A DNA stretch of 64,000 bases from a virus, in the IMG/VR virus record IMGVR_UViG_3300020416_001284, positions 1 through 64,000 of that record. One strand, 5' to 3'. Shown in pieces: positions 15,371 through 32,648 of the stretch. The translations under genes and the position numbers were made by a program. The notes under the pieces were generated by a model that had not been told where the DNA came from, made no database searches, and saw nothing but the letters and a program-made list of their open reading frames with translations. Numbering within the stretch: position 1 is the stretch's first letter; every line of letters begins with the position of its first letter.

Positions 15371-15399
15371 TTGCTTTTCCTATTTATTTATACTATAAT
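15371..15399 (+). promoter_or_regulatory. Sigma70-type promoter of the hldD-like gene
   Basis: TTGCTT (15371-15376), a 17-base spacer and a perfect TATAAT (15394-15399) lie on the plus strand. The predicted start near 15406 leaves only about 7 bases before the ATG at 15413, so the message would be nearly leaderless. Confidence 0.7.
15385..15392 (-). promoter_or_regulatory. T4-type late promoter (TATAAATA)
   Basis: A perfect TATAAATA on the minus strand, upstream of the RCC1 fibre starting at 15348. It lies inside the spacer of the opposing sigma70-type promoter. Confidence 0.75.
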
Positions 15400-15412: not shown

Positions 15413-16192
15413 ATGATCATAATTACTGGACATGAAGGATTTATTGGAAAGAAATTTCTAGAAAAACTAAAAGATAAAGAGATTGTCACAGTTGAAAAAA
15501 GGAACAGTTGGCACTTTCGTAGTTTTAATGAGTGGCACAAGATAGAACTCATACTACATCAGGGTGCTATCTCTGATACTACATGCACTAATCTAAAAGC
15601 AATCAATCACTTTAATGTAGAGTTTACTCAGTGGTTATTCGAGCAAGCAATCAGATATCAAATACCAATGAAGTATGCATCCTCTGCATCTGTCTATGGT
15701 AATACATCTGATACAATCAATCCTCTTAACTACTATGCAATATCCAAAGTCATCTCAGACTATTGGGTTCAAGACCACATGGATGAGTTTAAATTAATAC
15801 AAGGATTTAGATACTTTAATGTCTATGGAGAAGGTGAAGAACATAAGGAAGACCAAGCAAGCCCAGTATCCAAATTCACTAAGCAAGTTAAAGATGTAGG
15901 AGCTCTCAAACTATTTGAAGGGTCTGATAAGTTCCTTAGAGACTTTATATGTGTAGATGATGTTGTGGATATTGTATTGAATAACGATAAACCATCTGGT
16001 ATCTATGATTTAGGTACAAGCAATCCAACTAGTTTTCAAGAAGTAGGAGAACTAGTAGCAGAAAAATATAATGGTATCATAAAATATATCCCATTCCCCG
16101 AACACTTAAAGGGTAAGTATCAAACCTACACTTGTGCTAAAAAGGAATGGGATTATAAGTTTACTACTATTAAAGAGTATCTCCAGGTATAA
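15413..16192 (+). CDS. hldD: ADP-L-glycero-D-manno-heptose 6-epimerase (HldD-like)
   Basis: A 259-residue extended short-chain dehydrogenase that should convert ADP-D-glycero-manno-heptose to the L-glycero form. It has the NAD(P)-binding GHEGFIG (6-12) and the HldD signature HQGAISDTT (49-57, like HEGACSSTTE). The catalytic Y108-x3-K112 is in YYAISK. The family-typical C-terminal series is also present: FRYFNVYGEGEEHK, KLFEGSDKFLRDF, and YIPFPEHLKGKYQ. It is about 50 residues shorter than cellular HldD. The upstream ATG at 15371 is rejected because it lies inside the promoter. It is the only plus-strand gene between 0 and 63 kb, and its end overlaps the cupin gene tail to tail by 23 bases. 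Confidence 0.88.
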   Translation: MIIITGHEGFIGKKFLEKLKDKEIVTVEKRNSWHFRSFNEWHKIELILHQGAISDTTCTNLKAINHFNVEFTQWLFEQAIRYQIPMKYASSASVYGNTSDTINPLNYYAISKVISDYWVQDHMDEFKLIQGFRYFNVYGEGEEHKEDQASPVSKFTKQVKDVGALKLFEGSDKFLRDFICVDDVVDIVLNNDKPSGIYDLGTSNPTSFQEVGELVAEKYNGIIKYIPFPEHLKGKYQTYTCAKKEWDYKFTTIKEYLQV

Positions 16193-16532
16193 CCCTGTGA
16201 GAATCTTCATCAAAATGCTGAGTAGAGAACTCAAATAGTTCTGCGTCTTCTATTGCTACCATCTGATGCCTTGTATATCTACAACAATGAAAACTATCAC
16301 CAGGTTCTAGGATCATTGTCTTTGCATCTTCTAAGTTATCTGTCGGGCCATAAAACAAATGGATCTTCCCTGATTGTAAGTAGAAGGTCTCATCTTTTAA
16401 TATATGATAGTGCCATGAACACCTATGGTTTCTCTTAATAAACAATAACTTACCACAATACTCTGATGAGTTGGCAATCCATTTCTCCCAACCCCATCCT
16501 TTAGGTACAAATTTTGGTTTAGTTTCTCTCAT
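16170..16532 (-). CDS. Cupin-domain protein
   Basis: A 120-residue single cupin. The first motif is in CSWHYHILKDETFYLQSG (about 38-55, His-x-His and Glu) and the second is in LEPGDSFHCCRYTRHQM (about 75-92), giving the usual metal ligands. The pattern resembles the small mannose-6-phosphate isomerase or sugar-binding cupins found in surface-polysaccharide clusters. The substrate cannot be read from sequence. Its start overlaps the HAD gene stop by four bases, and it is the last gene of the decoration operon. Confidence 0.75.
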   Translation of the reverse strand: MRETKPKFVPKGWGWEKWIANSSEYCGKLLFIKRNHRCSWHYHILKDETFYLQSGKIHLFYGPTDNLEDAKTMILEPGDSFHCCRYTRHQMVAIEDAELFEFSTQHFDEDSHRVIPGDTL

Positions 16533-16879
16533 CGTTTATCATTAAAGAATACTTTATCAGGCCATGCCTTATCATCTATGAAGTAATCTGCATGTGGTTT
16601 ACCCATAATCAACTCATGATACTTACATCCCCAATCGTTCAATTGTTTCTCTGTAAGTTCAAATAAAACCTCTTTTGCTTTTATTGCAGCATCAAAATGA
16701 GTTTGATCGGAAAACCTACCCATTGCTCGTGCAGTGAAGTAGATAATATAATTACCCTCATCATAAAGTTTATTTAGTACCTTGATCCTCTGTTTCCAAG
16801 GTTCTGCTTTATGGTAATCTCTACCCACTGTGGGAGTACAAATAGTACCATCAATATCAACACAGTATCTTTTTGACAT
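16529..16879 (-). CDS. HAD-family phosphatase of sugar cluster
   Basis: A 116-residue HAD hydrolase with catalytic D8-x-D10-G-T (VDIDGTICTP). The second motif is in YFTARAMG (about 47-54), and the acidic motif IV is in DYFIDDKAW (about 98-106). It belongs to the small 'capsular biosynthesis' HAD group rather than the GmhB family proper. Placed beside the heptose kinase and nucleotidyltransferase, it is the obvious candidate for the heptose-bisphosphate phosphatase step, but that is inference from context. The start overlaps the kinase gene by 23 bases. Confidence 0.75.
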   Translation of the reverse strand: MSKRYCVDIDGTICTPTVGRDYHKAEPWKQRIKVLNKLYDEGNYIIYFTARAMGRFSDQTHFDAAIKAKEVLFELTEKQLNDWGCKYHELIMGKPHADYFIDDKAWPDKVFFNDKR

Positions 16880-17597
16880 CTTCCTCCGTTAGTACATAAG
16901 TTCCTCGATGTGACACAGCCACTGCTGCTGCTTTATTGGCAAGAGGTATTGCTTCCTCCATCCTACCATACTTTAAATATCCATAGGTAAGTGCAGCAAG
17001 GAATGTATCCCCTGCACCTACTACATCAAATACATTTACCTTCTCTGCTGGATATAAATCACCTTTATACTCTGCTCCCTCACCACCTCTAGTTATAATT
17101 AAATTTTCATAATTATAATATGACATTCTTTCATACTCAAGTTCATTAACTTTAATATATGCATCAGCAGGTAAATTAGTTTTCTTACTATCAATAAAAA
17201 CTGGTCCCTCAAACCACTCCACCAACTCAAACATTTTCTCTTGGGTTATAAATCCTTTATCATAATCAGATATAACAAGTGCATCATAGGTAGATTTCCA
17301 CTCATCTGGAAACTCAAATGAAATAGGGGTTATCTCTGGTTCTTCATCGGAACGGAAGATCTGTTGATTAGACTTCTCATCTATAAATCTTGTCTTAATG
17401 ATCTTCTCTGGATGAGTAGAAGTATAAGTTTCCACTCTAAATGACATAAGATTCTCTCTTACATTCCATACCATCCCCTTACTTGTCACTCCTCTCTTAT
17501 ATTGTAAGATAGGAACAGGAGCCTCTGGACTCAACCTCTTAGCATCTCCATAGAAATACCTGTCTTCACAACTATCTCCAATTAATAATACTTTCAT
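16857..17597 (-). CDS. Heptose 7-phosphate kinase-like (PfkB family, HldE domain I)
   Basis: A 246-residue PfkB/ribokinase-family protein. Its N-terminus, GDSCEDRYFYGDAKRLSPEA, matches the HldE kinase signature (GD..LDRY.YG....SPEAPVPV). The catalytic base is D197 in VGAGDTFLA (193-201). It is about 70 residues shorter than the usual HldE kinase domain. The conserved GGAANV substrate or lid motif reads GMVWNV (41-46). It should phosphorylate D-glycero-D-manno-heptose 7-phosphate at C1 if active. It overlaps the nucleotidyltransferase gene by 4 bases. In many bacteria the two activities are fused as HldE; here they are split. Confidence 0.8.
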   Translation of the reverse strand: MKVLLIGDSCEDRYFYGDAKRLSPEAPVPILQYKRGVTSKGMVWNVRENLMSFRVETYTSTHPEKIIKTRFIDEKSNQQIFRSDEEPEITPISFEFPDEWKSTYDALVISDYDKGFITQEKMFELVEWFEGPVFIDSKKTNLPADAYIKVNELEYERMSYYNYENLIITRGGEGAEYKGDLYPAEKVNVFDVVGAGDTFLAALTYGYLKYGRMEEAIPLANKAAAVAVSHRGTYVLTEEDVKKILC

Positions 17598-17995
17598 AGA
17601 TTTTTAATCTTACTAATAGTACTGCTGCTGGCATAACCACCAACTCTTGGAAGAAATCTTACTTCCTTGGCAAACTCTGCTCCTACTACCTCACCGTCTC
17701 TCCAATCATCACCAAGTAATAGTATATCAGGACTATACATTTCTACCAAGTCCTCTAACTCTTGTCTCGTATCAAATGTCAACACAGTATCAATATACTT
17801 AATTGCTTCTAACATTGCAACCCTATATCCAGCACTATGAACTGGTTTACCACCACCCTTATCTTCACTGATCTTCTCATCAGTATCAGTGGCTACAATA
17901 ACCTTCTCTCCTAGTGATCTTGCAACCTTGAATAATTGCACATGACCTGGATGAAGAATGTCAAAAGTTCCATTTACGAATACAGTTTTACACAC
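17594..17995 (-). CDS. rfaE2: Heptose 1-phosphate adenylyltransferase-like (HldE domain II)
   Basis: A 133-residue cytidylyltransferase-fold protein with VNGTFDILHPGH at 7-18 (the HxGH nucleotide-binding site). The C-terminal signature GYASSSTISKI is the counterpart of the STT-I motif in RfaE domain II. It would join AMP to heptose 1-phosphate to give ADP-heptose. A glycerol-3-phosphate cytidylyltransferase is the alternative, but the directly adjacent HldE-type kinase and the nearby hldD-like gene favour the heptose role. It overlaps the upstream oxygenase gene by 8 bases. Confidence 0.82.
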   Translation of the reverse strand: MCKTVFVNGTFDILHPGHVQLFKVARSLGEKVIVATDTDEKISEDKGGGKPVHSAGYRVAMLEAIKYIDTVLTFDTRQELEDLVEMYSPDILLLGDDWRDGEVVGAEFAKEVRFLPRVGGYASSSTISKIKNL

Positions 17996-18749
17996 GATAA
18001 ACCTCGTCTACAGTTACCATACTTGCTCTTTTGTTAATGATTCTATTCACTTCAGGATCATCTTTCTGTTCCTCAGTAGGTATATATATTGCCTTTGAAT
18101 TAACAGGACAATTCTCTACTGGATCAGTAAGATAATATACTGCTATACTCTTTCTATAACGCCCCTCAGGACACTCCAAAGGGGTAGGAAGTCCATGATA
18201 TGAGTTTTGGGTAGTATCGAACATTACTGCACGATTAAAGAGTGTATCAGTGGAAGTTATACATTGTTTTCTATCTGATGACCAAAACTCTAATTGGCCT
18301 TTCCACTCAGGATTCCAGTTCTCAGCAAGATAAACAATAAGATTTAACTTCCGTTGGAGTTTCAGTTTAGGATGAATAGAATAGTCAAGATGTATGTTTA
18401 GTTTACCACCTTTTCCATGCATATGCAACCCTCCACCATGTAAACCCACATCAGGGTACAACTTCTTGATACCCGTAATCTTCTGTAGTTTAGAAATAAA
18501 GGAAGGGGAATTCAAGTAACAAAATGTAGAGTATAAGTTCCTTGGAAACAAATTCCATGTATTACAAGCCTTCTTATTCTCTAAGGGATTATTATATACA
18601 TACCAGACATCAGAATTGTAATCAGGAAACTCCCGACTTAATGACATCGCAGTCTCATCATCAAAGAAGTTATCTATTACTACATGATTAAATGGTTGTC
18701 CTTTGATGAACTCAGATTTTAATTTAGAAACTTCAAGTCGATTGATCAT
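17988..18749 (-). CDS. 2OG-Fe(II) oxygenase
   Basis: A 253-residue double-stranded beta-helix oxygenase. Iron ligands H120-x-D122 (NIHLDYSIHP) and H185 (NSYHGLP), and a 2-oxoglutarate-binding R199 (YRKSIAVYY), are in the right order and spacing for the prolyl-4-hydroxylase-like group. Such enzymes hydroxylate proteins, sugars or small molecules; the substrate here is unknown. It is part of the sugar operon, with a 4-base overlap with the gene upstream. Confidence 0.8.
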   Translation of the reverse strand: MINRLEVSKLKSEFIKGQPFNHVVIDNFFDDETAMSLSREFPDYNSDVWYVYNNPLENKKACNTWNLFPRNLYSTFCYLNSPSFISKLQKITGIKKLYPDVGLHGGGLHMHGKGGKLNIHLDYSIHPKLKLQRKLNLIVYLAENWNPEWKGQLEFWSSDRKQCITSTDTLFNRAVMFDTTQNSYHGLPTPLECPEGRYRKSIAVYYLTDPVENCPVNSKAIYIPTEEQKDDPEVNRIINKRASMVTVDEVYRV

Positions 18750-19378
18750 ATATAATTGTCTTCTGTAAAGATTGTATCATACATATTCATCTCCTTATGA
18801 ACATGGTGCAGGTCACAAGGATCAAATCTATCCCCCGTACCAATCATCAACTCTCTATCAATTTTACCATGTTCTCCCTCAGTATACAAGAAGTTCTCAT
18901 CTAATGTAGCAAGATAATTTGAATTGGCCCACCAGAAATTACCACTATAATGTGGGTATGGTTTCATTCTTAACTTAACTCCCACTGAATCATACTCCTC
19001 TAATTTATCAATACACTCTCTCCATTTATCAATCACATAATATTCTAAAAATAATCTCCATGCATGTAGTTGAGGAACAAACTGTCTACTTGCTCCCTTT
19101 GCATGAAAGAATAATACTTTATAATCTGGATTCTCCTTAGAGAACTTATACATTGATTCAACAGTCTCACCCTCATCCTTAGTCAATCGTTTATTGTACT
19201 GAACTCTTGCCTTCTCTGGTAATGAAAACATCTCTGCTTCTCCCACAATACCAATATGAATAAACTCACAAGAATCCATTAATCCAGATGTGTGTAATCT
19301 ATGCATCTGTTGTTGATATATCAAACCAGATAATTCAGTCTGATATAGGTGGTAAAAAATTGCTAATTTTTGTAACAT
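18746..19378 (-). CDS. Glycosyltransferase-like protein
   Basis: About 210 residues from the ATG at 19378; an earlier ATG at 19399 is possible but deeper inside the upstream gene. It has features of a group of surface-sugar transferase-like proteins in phages and bacteria: VLFFHAKGASR near the middle, WRLFLEYYVIDKW, and the HYSGNFWWANSNYL motif near residue 145. No DxD metal motif is obvious. Assignment as a glycosyltransferase rests on the HYSGNFWWA pattern and on operon context. Confidence 0.6.
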   Translation of the reverse strand: MLQKLAIFYHLYQTELSGLIYQQQMHRLHTSGLMDSCEFIHIGIVGEAEMFSLPEKARVQYNKRLTKDEGETVESMYKFSKENPDYKVLFFHAKGASRQFVPQLHAWRLFLEYYVIDKWRECIDKLEEYDSVGVKLRMKPYPHYSGNFWWANSNYLATLDENFLYTEGEHGKIDRELMIGTGDRFDPCDLHHVHKEMNMYDTIFTEDNYI

Positions 19379-19772
19379 AATGTTTGTAGAACTCTTCAAA
19401 TTCAGATGATCCGTAAAAATATCGTTTCCCCTCCCTCATATATATGAACGGCACATTAAACTTTCCTAACTCTGCTAATATCTCATCTGTGATTTCCTTT
19501 CCTGCATTCACAACTTCTAACCATTTACCATAAGGCCAATCCTTTACACTCACCATTATACCAATATCTTTAGGAAACATCCACTCTGGTAAAACTCCTT
19601 GGGCCCAGAAACATTGATACCTTTTACACTGAGAAGGTCTATTAGGATGTATTGAGCATCCATTTTTAATAAACCTACAAGGATTACCTGGTGTTATATG
19701 TTGCCCATATACTTCATGATTGAGATACCTACAACATAAATCACATTCACCACATTCTCTAACCTGCTCCAT
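19335..19772 (-). CDS. YkgJ-like Cys-rich metal-binding protein
   Basis: A 145-residue protein with an N-terminal cluster of eight cysteines (CGECDLCC at 7-14, then Cys at about 32, 38, 49 and 54) matching the YkgJ / zinc- or iron-chelating domain family. Members occur near oxygenase and sugar genes, but the reaction is unknown; a metal or Fe-S cluster is expected. Its neighbours are a 2OG-Fe(II) oxygenase-like gene and a transferase, overlapping by 14 and about 44 bases. Confidence 0.7.
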   Translation of the reverse strand: MEQVRECGECDLCCRYLNHEVYGQHITPGNPCRFIKNGCSIHPNRPSQCKRYQCFWAQGVLPEWMFPKDIGIMVSVKDWPYGKWLEVVNAGKEITDEILAELGKFNVPFIYMREGKRYFYGSSEFEEFYKHYVTKISNFLPPISD

Positions 19773-20370
19773 GAAAGAAAAAGAGTTGAACTAATCTACA
19801 GTTATCATATGTAGTTCCAAACCAATCCCCATTTGAGTGCCATAAGAAAGGATTAAACATCACCAAACGATTATATTTAAATCCAATATTGTCCGTACAT
19901 ATCCACTTAGATTCATCCTTTCCTTCCGTATCAAAAAATTTTACCATATCATCATGAGAATTTATACCATACTTAGCAGCTTCTTCCATATTAGGAGCTG
20001 TCTCCCATCCAATTTCTTTGTGCTTCCAGAACTTAGTTCCTGCTGTGGGATGAAAAATAGGAGTTAAATAAAGAACTCCTGCCCATACTAATCCTGGATT
20101 TGGATCAAAATGTATATGCTGAGAACCATACTGTCCTTCTTTGGTTATTCTAAAATAAGAACACTTATTCTCTGGTTTTGTGACAAGTTGTTCTCCTACT
20201 ACTGCGGAACATGCCTCTGTCATCTCCTCCTCACCATGACTATCACTACTATCCCTTCCAGGCCAATTCTTACCACCCAATCTTTGATACTGTTGTTCTA
20301 ATGCATATGCACGAACAGCATCAGGATTATCTAAGAAACCATCAACAATAATTAAATTTCTACGTCTCAT
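19759..20370 (-). CDS. DUF6445-like 2OG-Fe(II) oxygenase
   Basis: A 203-residue protein opening with the family-typical NLIIVDGFLDNPDAVRAYAL. The putative iron ligands are H87-x-D89 (HIHFDPNPG) and H178 (FLWHSNG), with R192 for 2-oxoglutarate. This layout fits the DUF6445 group, whose members have the oxygenase fold but an unproved substrate. It is coupled to the GT9-like gene upstream by a 4-base overlap. Confidence 0.7.
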   Translation of the reverse strand: MRRRNLIIVDGFLDNPDAVRAYALEQQYQRLGGKNWPGRDSSDSHGEEEMTEACSAVVGEQLVTKPENKCSYFRITKEGQYGSQHIHFDPNPGLVWAGVLYLTPIFHPTAGTKFWKHKEIGWETAPNMEEAAKYGINSHDDMVKFFDTEGKDESKWICTDNIGFKYNRLVMFNPFLWHSNGDWFGTTYDNCRLVQLFFFHGAG

Positions 20371-21257
20371 AGTATTCTTAATAAATCGTGTTTAACATCT
20401 TCAAAGGGTTGATTCCAATCTCCTTGAACTGACTGTGTATATATTCTCATTTTATCACCAAACCAGAAGTCTTGCAACCACAAATAATAAGGATCTTTTG
20501 GAACCACTGTCCATATAGGTGTATTTAATCCTGCACATACAATAGGAATACATGTAGAACTACTAATGGTCAAGTCTAGTCTAGAGATGGCTGCAAATGT
20601 ATCATCCCATGTTTCAAACCATGATCTCTTGTGTTCATGAAGAGGAATAACATTAGAGGGTATATCATCTATTCCATCATCCTTATGTAAAGAATACAAC
20701 TCAACATTTGGAAGAGATCCTAACTCTTCAAAATACTGAGCAGGGATAATTGTATCTTTTTCAAATGTAGTATTGCCTGTCCATCTAACACCTATTTTAA
20801 ATTTATCGCTGGGCGGTATGATCCTTTTCCATTTAGTGAGGTATTCCTCAGTAGGTTCAAGATAAGGTTCAATGGGAACTTGATCCTGAGTCACACCCAA
20901 TGCAACAGGAACTTCACCCACAGGAACCCAGTAATCATAATCCTCAAAATCTTCTACCTCAGTAATATGTATTACTTTATCAATACTTTTTATTCTTGCG
21001 ATAACAGTATAAGATGACCAATAGTTAGTTGCAAAAACCACTCTCATTCCTCTCTCTACAAAATTATGAGAGAACTTTGCCCCAAATAATTCATCACCTA
21101 TTCCAGCTTCACCAGTGATTAATATAGTCTTACCTGTTTCAAATCTTGCATTCCATATGGGTTTTTTATGTTTATAAGAATATGCTCCCCACCGACTAGT
21201 CAACCTCTCAGTGTGCATCTTCACTAAGAGTTCTCTAAATTCTATAGGGTTGCCCAT
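20367..21257 (-). CDS. GT9/heptosyltransferase-like glycosyltransferase
   Basis: A 296-residue GT-B type protein. The N-terminal half has a Rossmann start (TILITGEAGIGDELFGAKF, about 49-67), like the GDxL donor of heptosyltransferases. The C-terminal half has KIGVRWTGNTTFEKD (about 153-167) and DLTISSSTCIPIVCAGLNTP (about 231-250), the counterpart of the family's D-x-x-I-S-x-D-T-x-x-x-H-L-A-G-A nucleotide-sugar motif. The usual Asp/His of that motif are changed. A heptose donor is suggested by the operon but not shown by sequence. Confidence 0.68.
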   Translation of the reverse strand: MGNPIEFRELLVKMHTERLTSRWGAYSYKHKKPIWNARFETGKTILITGEAGIGDELFGAKFSHNFVERGMRVVFATNYWSSYTVIARIKSIDKVIHITEVEDFEDYDYWVPVGEVPVALGVTQDQVPIEPYLEPTEEYLTKWKRIIPPSDKFKIGVRWTGNTTFEKDTIIPAQYFEELGSLPNVELYSLHKDDGIDDIPSNVIPLHEHKRSWFETWDDTFAAISRLDLTISSSTCIPIVCAGLNTPIWTVVPKDPYYLWLQDFWFGDKMRIYTQSVQGDWNQPFEDVKHDLLRIL

Positions 21258-21910
21258 TGTGCTAGTGTCTCTCTTGCTATTCGTAAGGACTTTGGTTTAT
21301 CACCTGTTCCCACATGAATAAGAAAAGGCCTTTGCCAATCCTCTGGACATATACCCTGATACTTTAATCCATACTTTGCAAGATTAAAAGACAATGCAAA
21401 CTCATCTGCATAATGACCCCATCCACGATTCCATTCACCTGGTTCATCATTGTTTGGAACTGCTAAATCAGAGATTTGTTGTGATGTAAGAGGTATAGGT
21501 TCCCATAAATCATGAGTTAAATTAGATGTCACCACAAAGTTAGTAGCAATTCCCACATCTCTACCATCCCTTTTAAAGTATGGTATTCTGTCAGCATAAT
21601 ACTTCGTGCTAATATTATAATTATCATTAAATGCAACATAAGCAGGATCTTTTACAATCTGTTGCACATCAGGAAAATGAGGATGAATAAGCATATCTGC
21701 ATCACACAGCATGTTTAGATCAGCATCTCTACCATCCTCAAACACTTGCATCTTCTCATAATTAATCGGATAATCAGGAAACTTTCTTTGAGTTATCAAA
21801 TTAATCAGGAACCCATGTCTTTCCGCATAGGATTTAATAGTAGGAAAGGTTAATGCAAAAAGTTCTGGAAAGAAATCATTGATGTTAAGGACATGAATAA
21901 GTTTTTTCAT
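21242..21910 (-). CDS. Glycosyltransferase (GT-A, DxD) protein
   Basis: A 222-residue protein with a GT-A-like start (KKLIHVLNINDFFPELFALT) and a DAD motif at 70-72 (LCDADMLI), typical of metal-dependent transferases such as galactosyltransferase-like families. A conserved-looking GWGHYADEFALSF near residue 165 could be the acceptor-side acid. The donor is unknown. It overlaps the upstream gene by 1 base and the downstream gene by 16. Confidence 0.65.
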   Translation of the reverse strand: MKKLIHVLNINDFFPELFALTFPTIKSYAERHGFLINLITQRKFPDYPINYEKMQVFEDGRDADLNMLCDADMLIHPHFPDVQQIVKDPAYVAFNDNYNISTKYYADRIPYFKRDGRDVGIATNFVVTSNLTHDLWEPIPLTSQQISDLAVPNNDEPGEWNRGWGHYADEFALSFNLAKYGLKYQGICPEDWQRPFLIHVGTGDKPKSLRIARETLAQWATL

Positions 21911-22866
21911 TATAAAGTAATCTCCTCCATTTTTAAGTTAAGATCTGAGTTCTCAGGTAATGAATAAGGTGTTTTATTATCTTCCCATAATTGCATAGCA
22001 TGTTCGGGTCTCCATGTAAAGGGAAGATCTCTTGAGACTGACATGTGCATTACATAAGGATCAAGAGGCATAAACATACTAACATGTTTTCCCCATAACT
22101 CACTAATAGTATCACCCTCCCATGAAGCTGCATCAGTTCCTGTTACTTGTAATCGATCAAAAGTTTCTTTATGTTTCTTGAATACTTTTGCCTTGAGCAT
22201 GAATGTTTCATGAGTATACCATGTTGTTCTATAATATCCTATAGGTGTAGGTACTACTGTGCAAGGTCTTACATAATAATCAAGTGTTGGGTTTGATGCA
22301 AAAGGAAACATCTGAACAAAACATTGAGGAAAGATCCCTACATCTCTATCAGTTCTTCCATCAAATTCTTTAACTTGTAAATTAGCTTCCTCATCCGATA
22401 CTCCTACTGACCATAAAGATTTTCTAAAAGTATCACGAGGACCAATTACATTTATCAAATGGTCTAGATAATACCATGCATATACCATCCTTTGAATTGC
22501 ATCAGGATAATGAAGATGATCATCATCTACAATATACACAAAGTCTTCATCAGATAAATCATAAATGTAATCATAAGCCACCTTTACAGAAAATCTTGAT
22601 TGTATATGAGGATCTTGTCCTTCTGTGTCTCTATCTCCTAAAAAATCAAAAGTAACTTTCTTCTTTGACTCTTCACATATTTTTGTAAGACTCTCTCTAA
22701 AGTATTCACTAGATCTATCATCAATAATATGATAATCTACATCCTCAATATTCTCCATGTTTTTAAGAACAGAGTTAACACAACGAAGAGCACACTCTGT
22801 CTTATTCACAATCCTCTTTGATTGGATTGAAGCCTTATCACATGTTCTAGTGATGATATGAAGCAT
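21910..22866 (-). CDS. Family-2-like glycosyltransferase
   Basis: A 318-residue GT-A protein. IITRTCDK opens the nucleotide-binding half, YHIIDDRSSEYF (45-56) matches the GT2 D-D-x-S motif, and YIVDDDHLHYPDA (111-123) carries the metal-binding D-D-D. The remainder is helical with no membrane segment, so it acts in the cytoplasm. Start and stop each share one base with the neighbours, so the operon is tight. Donor and acceptor unknown. Confidence 0.75.
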   Translation of the reverse strand: MLHIITRTCDKASIQSKRIVNKTECALRCVNSVLKNMENIEDVDYHIIDDRSSEYFRESLTKICEESKKKVTFDFLGDRDTEGQDPHIQSRFSVKVAYDYIYDLSDEDFVYIVDDDHLHYPDAIQRMVYAWYYLDHLINVIGPRDTFRKSLWSVGVSDEEANLQVKEFDGRTDRDVGIFPQCFVQMFPFASNPTLDYYVRPCTVVPTPIGYYRTTWYTHETFMLKAKVFKKHKETFDRLQVTGTDAASWEGDTISELWGKHVSMFMPLDPYVMHMSVSRDLPFTWRPEHAMQLWEDNKTPYSLPENSDLNLKMEEITL

Positions 22867-24084: not shown

Positions 24085-24809
24085 GTTTTTGCCACCCTTC
24101 CATCTAATGTAATAGTTGATAAATCATGAGGGTTGTCATATGCATACACACCATCCTGCACAATTCCAAACATATCAAATCTCATCATTGCATCTGCTGT
24201 TGTTATTATACCATGATGAATGGCATATGACACTAGGTTCTTTGCCATAAGAGGATCAATAGAATATGCATGAGCCCTACATATAAATCTATCTAGTCCT
24301 TGATGATCTGATGCATGTGGTGGAATAGTATCATTATTCCTTAAACTACCTGCTATTTGCTCACTACCACCCAAATAAACAATATTATTAAGATAGTTAT
24401 GTCTCAGATAAGGTTTTACCATTACAGCATCATGTTCTAATATAACAATGGGCATATCTTTGTCAAGACACATACACCACAAACTATAATGAGAGAGAAA
24501 GCAGGCTATCTGAGTCATTAACAGATCTGCTCTTTTTAATCTCAAAAAATTAACAAATGCCTGACCCTGTAAGAACTCAGGAACCTTGATAGTTCCCAGT
24601 TCACCTATTGGTTTACCTAGATCATGCTGCTGAACTTTAATCTTAGAATCAGTAGCATCAAATGCAGGAAACATTTGAACATTTGGTTGTCCTACTTTTT
24701 GACAAGACTCATAACATTGTTGAGTTAATTTTTGAGAAACTTCATTACCTTGAATAGAGATGATATAAGTCCCCTCTATAGACATCTCAAGTTGACTATA
24801 ATAATTCAT
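24081..24809 (-). CDS. Glycosyltransferase family 25-like
   Basis: A 242-residue GT25 (LPS/collagen galactosyltransferase-like) protein. It shows the family pattern of an early ISIQGNE... start, MFPAFDATD (46-54), a conserved QIACFLSHYSLWCMCL (100-115) and the ILEHDAVM metal motif at 123-130 (E-x-D). GT25 enzymes add galactose or related sugars to LPS or, in animals, to hydroxylysine. The neighbouring oxygenases make a hydroxylate-then-glycosylate route conceivable (inference). Confidence 0.75.
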   Translation of the reverse strand: MNYYSQLEMSIEGTYIISIQGNEVSQKLTQQCYESCQKVGQPNVQMFPAFDATDSKIKVQQHDLGKPIGELGTIKVPEFLQGQAFVNFLRLKRADLLMTQIACFLSHYSLWCMCLDKDMPIVILEHDAVMVKPYLRHNYLNNIVYLGGSEQIAGSLRNNDTIPPHASDHQGLDRFICRAHAYSIDPLMAKNLVSYAIHHGIITTADAMMRFDMFGIVQDGVYAYDNPHDLSTITLDGRVAKT

Positions 24810-25627
24810 AATGCTTCAGGATAAAATGTCTCATAATACCAACGATTATTATCTATAACCATCTTTGATTGCTTTTTTGTCATCACTTTTGGCCATCTAG
24901 GTTCTAACTTCTCCAATTTAGTTCTTGTTTTATGACTCACGAGTGCTCTATAAGTCGTATCATGTTCATAATAGTCTGGTTTTGGTATATTGTCAAAGTC
25001 GTGCTCAAAGTTTGGTTCTCCTAACCATTGATATATTTGTTGTAGTGATTCTCTTGGATTCTCATTAAAATCTTCGTGCCTACAAAAAAAGAAACTATTG
25101 GGATTCTTCTGTGCTACTTCAATTAGATGAGGAAGTGTCTGTAATGGACGGCCTAAAAGAGATTGAGTATCTGTACAATACATCTCCATCCTTTTTTCAA
25201 ATGGTTCTTGATAAGTAGTCTGATTAGGTACTTGTGGATATTTCCATATAAGAGACTCAAAAGAACAAATGATATCTCTTAAATCTCTCAGTATCACCAG
25301 ATATTTAGAGGTAGGATCAATTGCAAAAGTAGTAGGAAACCACTCTGACCATAACCTTGACTTAGAGAAGACAATGGGTTTATCAGTCATTGCCTCAAGC
25401 CATCCTCTCATTCCCTGACGGAGGAAATTAATATATGATTTATTTAATACATCTTTATCTAATGCTATAAACTCTGATACTTCATTTGATCTTGTTTGAC
25501 ATGCATCAAAAAAGTAAGGCATACAGCATGTGCCTGTTGTAAATATTCTTGGATTCTCATTCAAGATATTCATAATAAGTGTTGAAGCAGTTCTAGGAAG
25601 ACCTAGACAATAATGAAGTTGTTGCAT
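24806..25627 (-). CDS. PAPS-dependent sulfotransferase
   Basis: A 273-residue sulfotransferase-fold protein. The 5'-phosphosulfate loop is at residues 8-17 (LGLPRTASTL), just after the first strand as required. The 3'-phosphate-binding motif is in LVILRDLRDIICSFES (about 110-125), with Arg and Ser. It would transfer sulfate from PAPS to a sugar or tyrosine; Tyr- and glycan-sulfotransferases cannot be told apart here. An AATAAATA late-type box lies just upstream. It overlaps the GT25 gene by four bases. Confidence 0.78.
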   Translation of the reverse strand: MQQLHYCLGLPRTASTLIMNILNENPRIFTTGTCCMPYFFDACQTRSNEVSEFIALDKDVLNKSYINFLRQGMRGWLEAMTDKPIVFSKSRLWSEWFPTTFAIDPTSKYLVILRDLRDIICSFESLIWKYPQVPNQTTYQEPFEKRMEMYCTDTQSLLGRPLQTLPHLIEVAQKNPNSFFFCRHEDFNENPRESLQQIYQWLGEPNFEHDFDNIPKPDYYEHDTTYRALVSHKTRTKLEKLEPRWPKVMTKKQSKMVIDNNRWYYETFYPEAL

Positions 25628-25644
25628 AATAAAGTGATTTTGAT

Positions 25645-25652
25645 TATTTATT
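25645..25652 (-). promoter_or_regulatory. Late-promoter-like box (AATAAATA)
   Basis: A one-mismatch T4 late box over the stop codon of the RCC1 gene, 17 bases before the sulfotransferase ATG. It could give the downstream half of the sugar operon its own late start. Confidence 0.4.
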
Positions 25653-26883
25653 CTTTAATAGCATGACCACTACCATAACCACCTTTGATCTCCACCCAAG
25701 TACCAGGAAGTAGAACTGGTGATGAACGACTGACTTTATCATTTAGTCCCAATCCTCCATATGAAATACCTCTTCCCCATATGTAAAAATTACCATCGGC
25801 TTTTTTACAGGCTGTTACATCCTCTACTGAAATGGTATTGGCTTCACTGTTATCAAACACACCAGGAGTTGCAGTTGCCCAAGTCCCAGGAATTTGAGTT
25901 GGTGATGATCTTCTCATAGTTCCTCCTATATTTAGTCCCATTTCTCCAACTCCTCCTGATCCCCATGTCCATAGTGTTCCATCAGTTTTAGTTGCCATAA
26001 CCCTTCTAAAATCCCCACCATAGTTCAGTGCTAGATAATCCCAATTAGTATTAGTTCCTATTTGAATTGGTGATGATGCTCCACTACCATAATTGACTGT
26101 GGGAGAACCACCACTTCCATTCAACCCTAGTGTTCCTTGTCCATTATCCCCCCACATCCATAGTGTTCCATCAGTTTTGATGGCTCCAGCTGTATACTTT
26201 CCAATTGCCAGTTGTTTCCACGTTGTACCTGGCATTTGAACTGGTGATGATCGCATTGTAGGGGCATTATTGACCCACATCAATGCACTACCCGTTCCCC
26301 ACATCCACAGGGTTCCATCAGTTTTAATTCCTCCCATAGTTTGCAGTCCTCCCTGTATATATTTCCAATCAGTATCAGTTCCTACTTGAGCTGGAGAAGA
26401 TATCCTGTTTCCTTGTGTGTTCTGTCCTAAAAATCCTTCAAAACTATATCCACATGTCCATAGTGTTCCATCAGTTTTAAGTGAAATTTGACCATAACCA
26501 GCAGCGACTGAATACTTCCAATCAGTACCAGTTCCTATTTGCATTGGTGATGATCTTTTACCGTTACTAGGTCCTAAGTTGTAACCTGACATCCCACCTT
26601 CATTCTTCCCCCATGCCCACATTGTTCCATCCTTCTTCCCCGCCGTTACATTATAACCAGTAAGACCTCCTATCCATTTCCAAGTAGAATCAGTTCCTAC
26701 TTGAGTGGGTGATGAACGATTAAAACTTGTATTATTACCATTAAGTCCTAAAGATCCATCTCTATTATATCCCCATGACCATAATTCTCCCCCCCACTGA
26801 TAACCACCCGTAGTCCCAGCCACGGATTGATCATACCATTCATCTAATGTCCACGTATTGGTTCTTAAAGCAGGTGTAGCCAT
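25648..26883 (-). CDS. RCC1-propeller tail protein inside the sugar operon (411 aa)
   Basis: A short N-terminal segment (MATPALRTNTWTLDEWYDQS) of the W-x-L-x-x-V/W-Y type, also found in the proteins at 30687 and 32644, is followed by seven RCC1 blades. The start shares one base with the stop of the upstream glycosyltransferase, so expression of a fibre-type protein is directly coupled to a sugar enzyme. It is a predicted receptor-binding or decoration substrate protein. Blade 3 has WTCG instead of WxWG and blade 4 lacks the GxLG turn, suggesting diversification. Confidence 0.83.
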   Translation of the reverse strand: MATPALRTNTWTLDEWYDQSVAGTTGGYQWGGELWSWGYNRDGSLGLNGNNTSFNRSSPTQVGTDSTWKWIGGLTGYNVTAGKKDGTMWAWGKNEGGMSGYNLGPSNGKRSSPMQIGTGTDWKYSVAAGYGQISLKTDGTLWTCGYSFEGFLGQNTQGNRISSPAQVGTDTDWKYIQGGLQTMGGIKTDGTLWMWGTGSALMWVNNAPTMRSSPVQMPGTTWKQLAIGKYTAGAIKTDGTLWMWGDNGQGTLGLNGSGGSPTVNYGSGASSPIQIGTNTNWDYLALNYGGDFRRVMATKTDGTLWTWGSGGVGEMGLNIGGTMRRSSPTQIPGTWATATPGVFDNSEANTISVEDVTACKKADGNFYIWGRGISYGGLGLNDKVSRSSPVLLPGTWVEIKGGYGSGHAIKE

Positions 26884-27581
26884 TATACTTTATAGGATCC
26901 TTTGAACCTATTTATCCCCAAAACCTCCTCACATTTATCATAGAAGTAAACATTATATATCTGTTCACGAGCAGAGAATAAATGATAAAACATCTCCACT
27001 CCTAAATGATTTGAATATGTAGTACCGATACCCCATTCTCCACGACCCTTCCCAAGATCCCAGACTCCCTGTTTAGGCCTACGTTGGAAGTGAGTTGGTG
27101 GATACATCTCAACTTCTAGTCCTCTTTCTTGTGCTGCATAGGTGTAATATCCACAACAATCAGCCTTCCTATGATCAGGTTTAACACTCAATCTTCCAAA
27201 GTCCTCATACATCTGACGAGTCAAGCAAAATGCTGATGGTGCAACATAATTGTGCTCATCATTATCCAGATGCATTCCTCTCTGCACATTACCAATTAAC
27301 TTTCCTTTCTCTGCTTGCTCAAATGTATATTCAAGTGCATAAGCATTTAAAGGAATACAATCAACATCTAATAAAAGAACAGTATCATATTTCTGTTCTA
27401 CAAATAACTGATTAAATCCATAGTCAACAGCATCAGGATGAATAACCTCCTCTCCATGTGTCTGAGAACATAATGGAAGAAAGTCTGCTGTTGTATTAAA
27501 CTTCTTAACTACCTCTGCCTGAAGTCTTACAATATCAGTATCAAGAGAAAGATTATAAAAGGTAAATATTGCTCTCTTCAT
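26883..27581 (-). CDS. Glycosyltransferase-like protein (DxD)
   Basis: A 232-residue protein with a GT-A-like start (KRAIFTFYNLSLD) and a DVD motif at 72-74 (VLLLDVDCIPL). GNVQRGMHLDNDEHNYVAPSAF at about 97-118 resembles the acceptor-binding part of small hexosyltransferases. There is no membrane segment. It is directly coupled upstream of the RCC1 gene and overlaps the oxygenase gene by four bases. Donor unknown. Confidence 0.68.
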   Translation of the reverse strand: MKRAIFTFYNLSLDTDIVRLQAEVVKKFNTTADFLPLCSQTHGEEVIHPDAVDYGFNQLFVEQKYDTVLLLDVDCIPLNAYALEYTFEQAEKGKLIGNVQRGMHLDNDEHNYVAPSAFCLTRQMYEDFGRLSVKPDHRKADCCGYYTYAAQERGLEVEMYPPTHFQRRPKQGVWDLGKGRGEWGIGTTYSNHLGVEMFYHLFSAREQIYNVYFYDKCEEVLGINRFKGSYKV

Positions 27582-28198
27582 AAACCATCCCCTACTTTTA
27601 CATATAAGTTACCTGACACCACATACCTTGGTTCTTCTAAGGGTAATTGTCTACTTCGATGAACCAACCAACCAGGAAATATAATCCAAGTATTTTCCAT
27701 AGGTAAGATCTCTTGCATTCGAGTTCCACGTGCCTCTGATTTTCTTGGATCATGAAACTCTGTACCTCCAGCAGTTCCATCACCAGGATCATGAAGATAA
27801 TACACACCCGATAGAAATGAAGGGTTATGATCGTGCCAAGGGTTAGATTCTTTTTGATCTATACCTTTCCATCCTTTATATACCCATGCACCTGAACCAG
27901 TAAACTCTAATGCATTTTGATTAGAACAAAAACCATCTACAGTCGCAAGATAATTCCTACATGCATTATAGAATTCTTCTCTTAACTTCAACCAGACAGC
28001 AGGTGCATCATCTCGAAATAACATTACCCAAGTTTGATACTTAGGTGTTAAGTCATTATCAGTATACATCTTCTGCTCTATCATCCAGTCAGTGCAAGCC
28101 ATCATCTCTTGCTTGTCCTGAGGTGTGATGGATGGACACTTACTCCTTACTATATGAGTAGGGAATAGATCATATTTCATAGTATCTACCATTCCCAA
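27578..28198 (-). CDS. 2OG-Fe(II) oxygenase (PF13759-like)
   Basis: A 206-residue protein. NPWHDHNPSFLSGVYYLHDP (119-138) carries the iron-binding His pair H122/H124. H180 is in GWLVHRSR, and R191 in PRYVVSGNLYV is expected to bind 2-oxoglutarate. It is a clear member of the phage-rich PF13759 group. MKYDLFPTH (ATG at 28180) is the likely family start; the 28198 ATG overlaps the upstream gene by 13 bases and is also possible. Confidence 0.8.
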   Translation of the reverse strand: MGMVDTMKYDLFPTHIVRSKCPSITPQDKQEMMACTDWMIEQKMYTDNDLTPKYQTWVMLFRDDAPAVWLKLREEFYNACRNYLATVDGFCSNQNALEFTGSGAWVYKGWKGIDQKESNPWHDHNPSFLSGVYYLHDPGDGTAGGTEFHDPRKSEARGTRMQEILPMENTWIIFPGWLVHRSRQLPLEEPRYVVSGNLYVKVGDGL

Positions 28199-29487
28199 TT
28201 CTCCATAATTTCATATAGTTTATCTATGGTCTTATCCCAACTATTATACTCCATTTGCTGCAATACTACAACGTTATCAGGATACCATCTCATATCCTTA
28301 GTTTCCCATGTTATATATCCCATTAAAGGGGGAAGAACTATCACTCTTGCTCCCATTGCACCAGCTAAGTGAGCAACAGAAGTACAAGAAGTAATAATTA
28401 AATCTGCCTCCTCAAAAATATCATAGGTATCATTCCATGTCTTAATACTTGGAGCAAGATCCCATACATTTGCATTCTTCGGTATATCACTATCTTCCAT
28501 TTGTACTGAGAATAATTGCCCAAACTTATCAAGTCCTAACATCTTCTCTATTGGAATACTTCTAAACTGCTCATGTTCAAACTGAGCACTACCTTTCCAA
28601 CGAATACAAATCTTCTTACGACCATTCGCAATCCGATTCATTTCTGGAACAGGATTTGCTCTCTTCTTAAAGTATGGAAAAGTCACACCCTCCATAGGAT
28701 CATTAAGTCCTAAGAAGTAAGGAGCTGACATTGCAGGAACATACTTATCCCACTGGGTCTTCGCTATCTGTTCTGGTTCATATAAATTCTCAAACCCACA
28801 TGAACCTAATAAAGGTATCAATTCTTTAGGAGAAAATATCTTAACTGTCTTACAGTATTTCTTAAGATGTTCTACATAACGAACAAATATCATTCCATCA
28901 CCCAGACCTCCTTCCAGATAAAAAGCAATGGTATCTACTGTCTCACCATTCCATCTATACTGCTCACCTATATTATACTTACTCCGCAATATCCACTCAT
29001 GACCCCATACTCTTAATTCATCTATAGCACCTACACGAATATACTTATATCCTTCTTGAAACTTATCTTCTGCTAATAAATGCCATCCATAATTAAATGA
29101 TGCTCTTACATTTGTATCTGCAATTGGTGCTAATAATTTCCTGGTTTGATTTAATTTACCTTGAGCTGTCATATACAACCCTAAGTCTACTATATAACCC
29201 TCATTATTTTTCCACTTTTTAGGAAGAGATCTAAGAATGGCCTCTGCTTCTGGTGCTCTTTCTAAGTAATAAAGAATTTTTGCTTTATGAATAAGCACGG
29301 TTTCATTAGGAGTGACTTTCTCTACACACTCCAGTGCCTTACTATAATTCTTTTCTTCATGATGAATACCTGCCAAAAGGAACATTATTTGCTCATCCTT
29401 TTCTCTTTTCAAATATGCAATAGCAAGTTCTCGTGCAGCAGGAAATTCCTTTGCATCAAAGAGTTCATTAATAAGTTGTGGAATCAT
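28186..29487 (-). CDS. TPR-GT9 (heptosyltransferase-like) glycosyltransferase
   Basis: A 433-residue fusion. Residues about 1-160 are TPR-like helical repeats (AAREL-AIAYLKREKDEQIMFLLAG...NYSKALECVEKV). Residues about 180-430 form a GT-B domain of the GT9/heptosyltransferase type, with KKICIRWKGSAQFEHEQFRSIP and EADLIITSCTSVAHLAGAMG near 365-384. This second motif keeps the family's T-S-V-A-H-L-A-G-A core including the His. TPR-GT fusions often modify proteins rather than lipids, which fits a protein-glycosylation reading of the operon (inference). Confidence 0.8.
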   Translation of the reverse strand: MIPQLINELFDAKEFPAARELAIAYLKREKDEQIMFLLAGIHHEEKNYSKALECVEKVTPNETVLIHKAKILYYLERAPEAEAILRSLPKKWKNNEGYIVDLGLYMTAQGKLNQTRKLLAPIADTNVRASFNYGWHLLAEDKFQEGYKYIRVGAIDELRVWGHEWILRSKYNIGEQYRWNGETVDTIAFYLEGGLGDGMIFVRYVEHLKKYCKTVKIFSPKELIPLLGSCGFENLYEPEQIAKTQWDKYVPAMSAPYFLGLNDPMEGVTFPYFKKRANPVPEMNRIANGRKKICIRWKGSAQFEHEQFRSIPIEKMLGLDKFGQLFSVQMEDSDIPKNANVWDLAPSIKTWNDTYDIFEEADLIITSCTSVAHLAGAMGARVIVLPPLMGYITWETKDMRWYPDNVVVLQQMEYNSWDKTIDKLYEIMENWEW

Positions 29488-30065
29488 TTTTTCAATCCAA
29501 GATTAGGTCTACCATCAAATACTCTATCCTTAAACTCTCCTTCTGCATCAACATAGTGCATAAAGAGTTGGTATTGCGTCTCCCCTTCAAACTTATCTCT
29601 CCAATGTTCTAACTCGGTTCCATGATAGACCACCATATCTCCTACATCAAGAGGAACCTCATGACTCTTACCAGCATAATCTTTTATCCATATAGGCCAT
29701 TGCTTCTCATAATCTCCACCTAAACATATAGTCACTGAGTATTGACACTCTGGTCTATCACTATGTCTTTCAAGTACAGAACCGTTCTTATAGATTCTTG
29801 CATATGTATATTGGGGTATTAACCGTTTTCCTACTATTTTACCTATATCCTCGGTGGACATATACATTGCCATATCAAAGGCAGGATCTCCATAAAGACA
29901 ATGAGAGTTAGGAGCTTGGTCATCTCCTCTTAAACTAGAATCATTCTGTGCTCTAAGAGTAAAGTAATTACGAAGAAATAGCGAAAAATAAGGAACGACA
30001 TATCCTTTAACTTTTTGGAATCCCTGATTTTGAAAAAGTGTCATAAATATTTTTCTGAGTGGCAA
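29484..30065 (-). CDS. 2OG-Fe(II) oxygenase-like protein
   Basis: A 193-residue protein with H101-x-D103 in LERHSDRPECQYSVTI and H154 in GTELEHWRDKF, the ligand pattern of a phage-frequent oxygenase group. The expected 2-oxoglutarate-binding Arg after the second His is not obvious (QYQLFMHYV). The first ATG is used here; MTLFQNQGF at 30044 is an alternative. The 5' end lies inside the upstream oxygenase gene by up to 59 bases. Confidence 0.72.
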   Translation of the reverse strand: MPLRKIFMTLFQNQGFQKVKGYVVPYFSLFLRNYFTLRAQNDSSLRGDDQAPNSHCLYGDPAFDMAMYMSTEDIGKIVGKRLIPQYTYARIYKNGSVLERHSDRPECQYSVTICLGGDYEKQWPIWIKDYAGKSHEVPLDVGDMVVYHGTELEHWRDKFEGETQYQLFMHYVDAEGEFKDRVFDGRPNLGLKK

Positions 30066-30642
30066 CCCAACTTACTAATGTATATCTATGTCCCCACGTA
30101 ACTGGATGTACCTTATGTACAAAATCTTTATATGATGGGAATGCTATCATCATACCCTTTTTAGGTTTAATCGTCAACCCCAGTTCAGGAAATTCTAGTT
30201 CTCCCCCACCATACTGATCATTCAAATAGAAAAGAAAGGAAACATCTCGTTCCATCAGTGGTTCCCATTGACGAGTTTCATAATTAAATTTTTCTCCATC
30301 ATTATGTGCTTTATAGTGACCACCTGGAGGATATCCTAAAAACTGAACGGGTTCATATGATTTAAATTCACACTTATATTTTGGCACTACATAATTAACA
30401 AAACAAGCAGCAACAGCTTCTTCAAGTTTTTTCGACAATTCCTTGGTTATAGTATACCACAAAGTATTACGAACTTCTAAATCAGTCTGATTTTTATCTT
30501 GATCATCTTCCCCCTCATTAATAATAGTTGCTTGAGAAATATTTTTTTTATCATTCGTAAGGAGCATTATCTCCTCAATATGTTCTTCAGGAATTACATT
30601 CTGCTGTATAATAATCAAGTCATATGGATTGTGTAGTAGCAT
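30007..30642 (-). CDS. Prolyl-4-hydroxylase-like 2OG-Fe(II) oxygenase
   Basis: A 211-residue P4Hc-type protein. YPPGGHYKAHNDGE (104-117) carries H113-x-D115. FVHKVHPVTWGHRYTLVSWV (175-194) carries the distal His and R186. FLFYLNDQYGGGELEFPE and KPKKGMMIAFPS are family hallmarks. This subfamily hydroxylates proline in proteins in other systems; here the substrate is unknown. It is the first gene of the sugar/oxygenase operon, with a 44-base gap after the RCC1 gene upstream. Confidence 0.85.
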   Translation of the reverse strand: MLLHNPYDLIIIQQNVIPEEHIEEIMLLTNDKKNISQATIINEGEDDQDKNQTDLEVRNTLWYTITKELSKKLEEAVAACFVNYVVPKYKCEFKSYEPVQFLGYPPGGHYKAHNDGEKFNYETRQWEPLMERDVSFLFYLNDQYGGGELEFPELGLTIKPKKGMMIAFPSYKDFVHKVHPVTWGHRYTLVSWVATQKNIYDTFSKSGIPKS

Positions 30643-32640: not shown

Positions 32641-32648
32641 TATTTATA
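32641..32648 (-). promoter_or_regulatory. T4-type late promoter (TATAAATA)
   Basis: A perfect late box on the minus strand, 22 bases upstream of the ATG at 32618 and overlapping the end of the RCC1 gene at 32644. Confidence 0.72.

Follow-up and report, generated by a model that had tools for sequence, protein, structure and literature searches.

A putative glycosylation and sulfation system for RCC1 tail fibres in the late fibre region of a marine cyanophage-like myovirus

An operon in which enzyme genes are interleaved with RCC1 fibre genes probably encodes a late-expressed system for glycosylation and sulfation of the RCC1 tail fibres of the phage itself, with heptose as the likely donor in this phage (probability about 0.6). 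The window analysed covers positions 1 to 64,000 of the IMG/VR record IMGVR_UViG_3300020416_001284. The source phage is a Kyanoviridae-like, marine cyanophage-like myovirus, whose host is inferred solely from core-gene similarity. The block consists of 21 overlapping ORFs on the minus strand (16170-30642) and one convergent epimerase gene on the plus strand; all features given below lie on the minus strand unless noted. Intergenic gaps within the block range from -65 to +20 bp, and the next RCC1 gene follows after +44 bp. The tight, overlapping operon of the initial annotation is thereby retained, its count of about 17 genes being slightly low. The gene order was found again in about 20 other IMG/VR contigs, hence the block is no assembly artefact.

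RCC1 genes were called with PF00415/PF25390, except for the gene at 4720, which was called by its repeat sequence. As had been described initially, one RCC1 gene lies inside the block (25648-26883; PF00415/PF25390), and RCC1 and repeat-rich fibre genes are found on both sides. The six flanking RCC1 genes begin at 4720, 7807, 9812, 12766, 30687 and 32644. Shaft sequences precede the RCC1 propeller in 7807-9792 (PF25390, 1.8e-51), shaft and LamG in 9812-12733 (PF25390, 3.8e-51; PF02210), and shaft repeats and a LamG lectin domain in 12766-15348 (PF13385, 2.1e-16; PF00415, 1.5e-43). On the other side, 30687-31910 (PF25390, 1.7e-50) and 32644-33855 (PF00415, 6.7e-36) flank a syntenically conserved gene (31914-32618), and a repeat-rich tail-fibre protein is encoded at 33868-36348. 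The T4-type late promoter sequence TATAAATA is present upstream of the RCC1/enzyme operon (32641-32648), directly ahead of the conserved gene, and also at 15385-15392 and 36377-36384. All three minus-strand sites of the window and 24 of 25 sites in relatives are located just upstream of fibre genes. From the enzyme block to the RCC1 genes behind one such site no gap exceeds 44 bp, and the block is therefore predicted from sequence to be under a late promoter common to the fibre genes. Early expression of the enzymes, which the initial annotation had named as an observation that would speak against fibre modification, is argued against by this shared promoter. No acceptor motif was found, and none is proposed: SSP/STP, the motif seen in the propeller repeats, appears to be generic to RCC1 proteins of bacteria.

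Two proteins of the block have a GT9-type GT-B fold. The first, TPR-GT9 (28186-29487; AF2 pLDDT 91.9), combines an N-terminal TPR superhelix with a GT9-like GT-B domain, and the nearest Foldseek structures to its model were OGT and SPINDLY, both protein O-glycosyltransferases of the TPR type, followed by TibC, with WaaF matched too. For the second, GT9b (20367-21257; pLDDT 80.5), Foldseek matches 1-9 were all GT9/heptosyltransferase structures, including WaaF, WaaC and TibC. Fold comparison was used because comparing the GT9 domain by sequence with solved structures gave nothing credible. The assignment of two GT9-like proteins is thus backed by fold and hardly by sequence: PF01075 (GT9, CAZy) matched 5 of 23 family members with a best E of 0.016, PF13844 (GT41) matched neither the window protein nor the GT9-like family, and a distant-homology scan from a five-member GT9 alignment was unproductive, the members being too divergent. 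The GxGD Asp197 of TPR-GT9 is invariant (23/23); it may correspond to D110 of TibC, the catalytic base that follows the first strand, as judged by eye via the WaaC GD motif. The column matching the heptose-site residue Asp261 of WaaC, placed by a weak local hhalign match, holds Cys in 21 and Ser in 2 of the 23 members, so donor specificity may differ.

The initial annotation had likened these enzymes to the BAHT heptosyltransferases TibC/AAH (PMC4358343). The analogy stands for the protein-glycosyltransferase/heptosyltransferase fold of both models and for the proposed transfer of ADP-heptose onto a repetitive surface protein encoded nearby; it fails for the BAHT hallmarks. The N-terminal beta-barrel is not present in the AF2 models (TPR-GT9 starts with the TPR superhelix, GT9b with only two helices) and the four-Cys iron finger is absent, the GT domains holding four scattered and two cysteines. 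BAHT membership is ruled out on these two grounds. The phage enzymes carry a TPR or sulfotransferase N-terminus instead of the barrel, and their putative substrate is an RCC1 propeller fibre, whereas that of BAHT enzymes is a beta-helix autotransporter. With OGT/SPINDLY (GT41), its best whole-chain PDB matches, TPR-GT9 shares the order of TPR superhelix and GT-B catalytic domain, but it has no GT41 profile match, a GT9-like catalytic half and probably a different donor.

The link between GT9 and RCC1 extends far beyond the source contig. Among 79 IMG/VR loci fetched by RCC1 alone, 53 contain a GT9-family ORF, and in all 53 the nearest RCC1 gene is on the GT9 strand (median gap 43 bp); 29 of these 53 ORFs are fused to a sulfotransferase. 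The reverse scan found RCC1 in 70 of 73 sulfotransferase::GT9 loci, on the same strand in 70/70 and with a median gap of -3 bp. Altogether, the environmental phage fragments in which RCC1 stands next to a GT9-type enzyme number well above a hundred; no RCC1::GT9 fusion occurs in the set. In 49 T4-like control contigs, GT9 is present in 14/15 with RCC1 vs 0/34 without (p 2e-11; p = 9e-6 once related RCC1-positive contigs were merged). Clear GT9 matches among 50,697 phage records were obtained in three phages (AG-345-E08, S-SRM01, BUCT-ZZ01), all RCC1 carriers; in the Synechococcus phages S-SRM01 (host KCZYC6) and BUCT-ZZ01 (host PCC 7942), RCC1 adjoins GT9. The podovirus MW202512 has a GT9-family protein without an RCC1 match. 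psbA was uninformative as a host marker over the RCC1/GT9 contigs, since most are fragments. On a Taylorbacteria contig (Patescibacteria), RCC1 occurs together with GT9::sulfotransferase, another GT9 and an OGT homologue of family GT41. The Taylorbacteria genome is the only one of 188 Patescibacteria-class genomes surveyed in which the GT9 family was found, thus the family is not a general CPR feature. An APS kinase-like P-loop kinase/nucleotidyltransferase near many sulfotransferase::GT9 genes was considered as a PAPS supply and dropped as evidence, because its homologues extend to phages of Stenotrophomonas, Xanthomonas and Clavibacter in which no GT9 match was obtained.

A receptor-binding fibre linked to a receptor-modifying enzyme would likewise co-occur tightly, as gtr operons near the tailspikes of temperate phages illustrate. 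The enzymes could accordingly change the host surface glycan bound by the RCC1 fibres, in line with the alternative named in the initial annotation, and block superinfection or the sticking of progeny to debris, fibre and enzyme travelling together through their shared glycan. We regard this as possible, if rather doubtful. GT25, GT2 and HldD are similar to LPS enzymes, the heptose genes of cyanophage SynMITS9220M01 were interpreted as LPS synthesis (PMC7378029), and receptor modification is the reading given to glycosyltransferases of the pelagimyophage host-recognition region (PMC7029224). However, most published cyanobacterial LPS structures, including those of marine Synechococcus WH8102 and CC9311, are without heptose (PMC4515613, PMC4390846), although it is reported for Spirulina (PMC4515613). 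No membrane segment was predicted in any block protein, and the block genes include no flippase, polymerase or lipid-carrier enzyme. A late promoter shared with the fibres would also be late for excluding competitors, the fold of TPR-GT9 resembles protein glycosyltransferases, and RCC1 is the sole constant neighbour of GT9 over diverse contigs. Finally, the RCC1/GT9 pair is present on a contig of the Patescibacteria, a group generally regarded as being without LPS.

The ADP-heptose synthesis genes that the initial annotation saw in the operon were confirmed, with kinase, adenylyltransferase and 6-epimerase all present; the three TIGRFAM matches are all below the curated cut-offs. The HldD-like ADP-glyceromanno-heptose 6-epimerase is encoded on the plus strand (15413-16192; TIGR02197, 3.4e-62) from an ATG, where the ORF tool had placed a TTG start at 15371. 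It is 36% identical to E. coli RfaD and retains the YASSA, YxxxK and HK catalytic motifs. Its 3' end overlaps by 23 bp, on opposite strands, with the gene of a cupin metal enzyme (16170-16532; PF07883), followed by an EcbF/BcbF-like HAD phosphatase (16529-16879; TIGR01689, 1.5e-7; PDB 9iqw, 2e-10; DIDGT motif), a short PfkB form of the HldE kinase domain (16857-17597; TIGR02198, 1.3e-36; phrog_8133; GAGDTF motif) and the HldE nucleotidyltransferase domain (17594-17995; TIGR02199, 8.5e-28). No GmhA isomerase was found in the block. The cupin, in which H41/H43/E48/H89 are invariant across 7 homologues, has L-ribose isomerase as its nearest PDB match (E 0.0028), and its gene accompanies nucleotidyltransferase and kinase genes in other phages; it may be an aldose-ketose isomerase replacing GmhA. 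The HAD phosphatase is a candidate for the GmhB role.

Heptose genes are facultative, yet recurrent beside RCC1/GT9 in divergent lineages. Compact loci elsewhere have the order RCC1-RCC1-ST::GT9-RCC1-RCC1-X-NT-cupin-kinase-HldD, and their kinases share 38-43% identity with that of the window. The survey of co-occurrence suggested initially was only partly favourable: the combination recurs in divergent phages, but RCC1 and GT9 occur without heptose genes in S-SRM01, BUCT-ZZ01, G208, G222, G223 and G236. Since GT9 pairs with RCC1 in these as well, heptose is not established as a universal donor. Conversely, the cassette is found without RCC1/GT9 in two control contigs and in P-SSM2 and S-CAM3; P-SSM2, S-CAM1 and S-CAM3 have the same five genes in the same order adjoining tail-fibre genes, with a NodU-like carbamoyltransferase in place of RCC1 and GT9. 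P-SSM2 and S-CAM3, together with G208, where the same enzyme block continues directly into the RCC1 genes without the cassette, and S-SRM01, which has a GDP-mannose-dehydratase-like epimerase instead, would fit two unrelated neighbours, namely a mobile heptose/LPS cassette beside a fibre-modifying GT9/sulfotransferase set with a different sugar donor. We consider this improbable, as the cassette adjoins RCC1/GT9 in several lineages whose kinases are just 38-46% identical, and the kinase is enriched in RCC1-positive contigs (6/15 vs 2/34, p 0.007, the contigs not being independent).

The remaining block genes encode further modifying enzymes. The sulfotransferase reported initially was recovered (24806-25627; PF13469, 2.3e-11), and many other phages encode a related domain as a fusion with GT9. 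For the four other glycosyltransferases claimed, two assignments are firm, a GT2 (21910-22866; PF00535, 3.4e-7) and a GT25 family enzyme (24081-24809; PF01755, 1.3e-12). Three GT-like proteins were assigned by motif alone, with no Pfam match: 18746-19360 (homologue gp342 of S-SRM01, 46%), the syntenically conserved 21242-21910 (DAD motif) and 26883-27581 (DxD-type motif), whose gene overlaps the RCC1 gene of the block by 1 bp. Five of the claimed seven 2OG-Fe(II) oxygenases are firm by Pfam: OG1 (17988-18749; PF13640, 6.4e-15), OG2 (22866-23534; PF13759, 9.3e-12), OG3 (23470-24084; PF13759, 2.4e-10), OG4 (27578-28198; PF13759, 5.6e-9) and OG6 (30007-30642; PF13640, 1.9e-16). The other two are plausible, OG5 (29484-30065) by an HxD...H motif with no Pfam match and a DUF6445 protein (19759-20370; PF20043, 3.6e-13). 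A CxxCxxCC-type Cys-rich protein (19335-19772; phrog_9155; homologues in S-SRM01, L215 and L066) is a repeated neighbour of GT9/RCC1. Combinations of oxygenases and glycosyltransferases are known to modify phage DNA, and hypermodification of bases by these enzymes was considered as well. It was rejected as very improbable on the oxygenase class, PF13640/PF13759 with no TET/JBP match; the position of the genes in a late fibre operon and their coupling to RCC1 also speak against it.

For the modification of RCC1 fibres, we infer a mechanism with RCC1 as acceptor and ADP-heptose as donor, including the order of the steps and the role of the cupin. The RCC1 beta-propeller proteins would be the receptor-binding parts of the tail fibres and would be modified in the host cytoplasm during progeny assembly by enzymes from their own operon. 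ADP-heptose would be made from host sedoheptulose 7-phosphate, with the cupin taking the isomerase step and the kinase, HAD phosphatase, nucleotidyltransferase and HldD those that follow. The TPR arm of TPR-GT9 would hold the RCC1 protein while the enzyme adds the first sugar, and its extension may fall to GT9b, GT2 and GT25 together with the remaining GT-like proteins; the sulfotransferase would add sulfate, and the 2OG oxygenases would hydroxylate either fibre residues, making acceptors, or the sugars. The coat possibly serves receptor-binding specificity, protection or stability.

The initial annotation had considered a phage modifying its own repetitive fibres to be new. Virion glycosylation by phage-encoded enzymes as such is already known: glycosyltransferases encoded by mycobacteriophages Che8 and Rita are thought to act on their own virion proteins (PMC11256854). 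There the targets are capsid proteins, whereas here RCC1 tail fibres are proposed, with sulfation and nucleotide-sugar genes in the fibre operon. In T4-like marine phages, host-recognition clusters rich in glycosyltransferases likewise lie in the fibre region and overlap in their gene classes, rfaE among them, but are read as modifying the host O-chain, and RCC1-GT9 coupling is not described in the available part of that work (PMC7029224). We give about even odds to a wider claim, that RCC1 fibres of environmental phages have a dedicated GT9, often sulfotransferase-fused, which glycosylates and sulfates the receptor-binding propeller, with ADP-heptose made on site in some lineages; this would be a general, hitherto undescribed route by which phages tailor host-recognition proteins post-translationally, and at least one CPR bacterium would have it too. 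RCC1 and GT9/sulfotransferase would form a two-gene unit simple enough for co-expression. If the proposal is true, many aquatic phages have receptor-binding parts that carry a covalent sugar/sulfate layer, which host-range prediction from fibre sequence, fibre structure prediction and recombinant fibre reagents would miss. It would also give a function to the 'LPS' genes long seen in cyanophage fibre regions and explain why phages encode heptose synthesis in hosts whose LPS is mostly without heptose.

The window covers the initial 64 kb of a virus record of 70.8 kb. Because a core gene (61631-62350) shows 73-78% identity to baseplate-hub proteins of Kyanoviridae (among them SynMITS9220M01, P-TIM68 and S-SM2), the virus is most likely a cyanomyovirus, from which we infer the host. 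Flanked by fibre genes, 21 minus-strand ORFs with start/stop overlaps (16170-30642) and one convergent epimerase gene (HldD, 15413-16192, plus strand) form an enzyme block, which also encodes HldE kinase and HldE nucleotidyltransferase as two short proteins, an EcbF-like HAD protein, a metal cupin, GT2, GT25 and a sulfotransferase. The three heptose enzymes scored under the curated NCBIfam cut-offs and were assigned by best match, the 36% identity of HldD to E. coli RfaD across almost the full length, and conserved co-location. The initial annotation had counted seven oxygenases and four other glycosyltransferase-like proteins; five 2OG oxygenases were confirmed by Pfam and two are plausible, while GT2 and GT25 stand as families and three more proteins are GT-like by motif only.

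Among 50,697 phage records, GT9 matches were found in AG-345-E08, S-SRM01, BUCT-ZZ01 and, weakly, one podovirus, and RCC1 matches in the same three phages and a distant Clostridioides phage; an RCC1 gene immediately precedes the GT9 gene in both S-SRM01 and BUCT-ZZ01. Scanning IMG/VR with RCC1 queries only gave 79 loci, 53 with GT9 (36 of 44 for loci of at least 12 kb), always on the same strand and with a median gap of 43 bp. A scan with sulfotransferase::GT9 fusions (ST::GT9) gave 73 new loci; RCC1 was present in 70, at a median gap of -3 bp and in 64 cases no more than 150 bp away. For comparison, an unrelated fibre-adjacent gene was used to pick 49 T4-like contigs as controls. GT9 was present in 14/15 RCC1-positive contigs, the lone exception being a 26-kb fragment, versus 0/34 RCC1-negative ones; these contigs are partly redundant, and merging related RCC1-positive contigs gave p ~9e-6. 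No description of the RCC1-GT9 pair was found in a literature search with most subscription journals beyond its reach. Linkage of fibres and enzymes is also predicted if the enzymes modify the host receptor, which we consider less likely than modification of the fibres.

Podovirus MW202512, without an RCC1 match, encodes a GT9-family TPR protein (L006 9305-10882) and an FkbM-type methyltransferase close to the gene for its major capsid protein; possibly, the same logic is applied there to another virion protein. A small Cys-rich protein (CxxCxxCC type) adjoins GT9/RCC1 genes in several distinct phages (window 19335-19772; L003 15897-16265; L215 5865-6242 and 8833-9201).

The window contains seven RCC1 genes, the one at 4720 being recognised from its repeats; those at 9812 and 12766 encode shaft repeats, then a LamG lectin domain, then the RCC1 propeller. 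Relatives of a related RCC1 protein are annotated as tail proteins in PHROGs, and eleven RCC1-like proteins were reported for a jumbo coliphage (PMC7247149). In closer related contigs, enzymes are typically 76-87% identical to those of the window, whereas RCC1 proteins reach only 38-48% to the best window match; these are best matches, not strict orthologue pairs, and the contrast is smaller in more distant contigs. This pattern would be expected of receptor-binding parts beside conserved machinery. RCC1 fibre genes form a tandem array at 4720-15348, which grows to six genes in the related contigs L216 and L217 and has the look of a receptor-binding repertoire under diversification.

AlphaFold models of the GT9-like proteins had pLDDT values of 91.9 (TPR-GT9, 28186-29487, minus strand) and 80.5 (GT9b, 20367-21257, minus strand). 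Both models match TibC in fold: GT9b matched a Veillonella GT9 (2.6e-8), WaaF, WaaC and TibC best in the PDB; the full TPR-GT9 chain was closest to OGT and SPINDLY, followed by TibC (1.2e-4) just before WaaF (1.4e-4). TM-scores were modest (0.3-0.57) and therefore indicate fold class, not close kinship. The GxGD Asp is invariant, the position that aligns, weakly, with WaaC Asp261 is Cys in 21/23 members, and sequence profiles barely detect GT9; the most fitting label for the family is 'divergent GT9-like'. Folds of this protein-glycosyltransferase type argue against receptor modification.

An N-terminal sulfotransferase is present in 29/53 GT9 ORFs beside RCC1; in the window, both are separate genes of one operon. 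In BUCT-ZZ01, the GT9 encoded immediately behind an RCC1 gene (L004 8281-9996) is instead extended at its C-terminus by a part that, judged by eye, looks like a SAM methyltransferase. A Candidatus Taylorbacteria contig (L049, JARIGY010000094.1, 2273-9960) encodes GT41 (OGT family), GT9::sulfotransferase (the reverse of the phage order), a second TPR-GT9, a GT2-like protein and RCC1; the GT9 family occurs in 1/188 genomes of this class. Judging by the fusions, glycosyl transfer and sulfate transfer appear to belong to a single process. The genes of this CPR contig adjoin fibre-like repeats and a TatC-like gene. Downstream of ST::GT9 in L264 (10532-11317), an APS-kinase-like P-loop kinase is fused to an NMNAT-like nucleotidyltransferase; homologues occur in 49/152 RCC1/GT9 loci and a few Stenotrophomonas, Xanthomonas and Clavibacter phages.

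The five-gene heptose cassette is mobile. In P-SSM2 and S-CAM3 it is part of the fibre region although both phages lack RCC1 and GT9, and it lies beside RCC1/GT9 in 11/73 ST::GT9 loci and several RCC1 loci, whose heptose kinases are 38-43% identical to that of the window. Where the arrangement is most compact, only RCC1, ST::GT9, a single kinase-like gene and the heptose genes can be recognised. Sugar isomerases are among the relatives of the cupin, which is found together with nucleotidyltransferase and kinase and may replace GmhA. Co-occurrence of heptose genes with RCC1 fibres recurs, but the RCC1-GT9 pairings of G208, G222, G223, G236, S-SRM01 and BUCT-ZZ01 contain no heptose kinase, which counts against a universal heptose role. 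Cyanobacterial LPS examined is mostly without heptose (PMC4515613, PMC4390846); heptose supply by the phage therefore fits a phage product rather than a modified receptor, given the presumed host. A NodU-like carbamoyltransferase, which possibly decorates the same sugar further, adjoins the cassette in P-SSM2 (L007 7805-9607) and S-CAM3 and lies near RCC1/GT9 in L087 (18223-19911).

The T4 late-promoter core, TATAAATA, has three minus-strand sites (15385, 32641, 36377), each a short distance upstream of a fibre-region gene, and is rarer than chance elsewhere in the window. In related loci, 24/25 sites fall within the 80 bp that precede the start of a gene, almost always a fibre gene; one site in L047 lies 17 bp ahead of the first enzyme. 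The enzyme block comes after one such site with no gap >44 bp between, so that late, joint production of fibres and enzymes is predicted. Receptor modification fits poorly with this predicted timing and with the lack of membrane components. Modification of its own fibres by the phage is the best explanation, with a probability of roughly 60%, and heptose is the likely donor in the system of the window.
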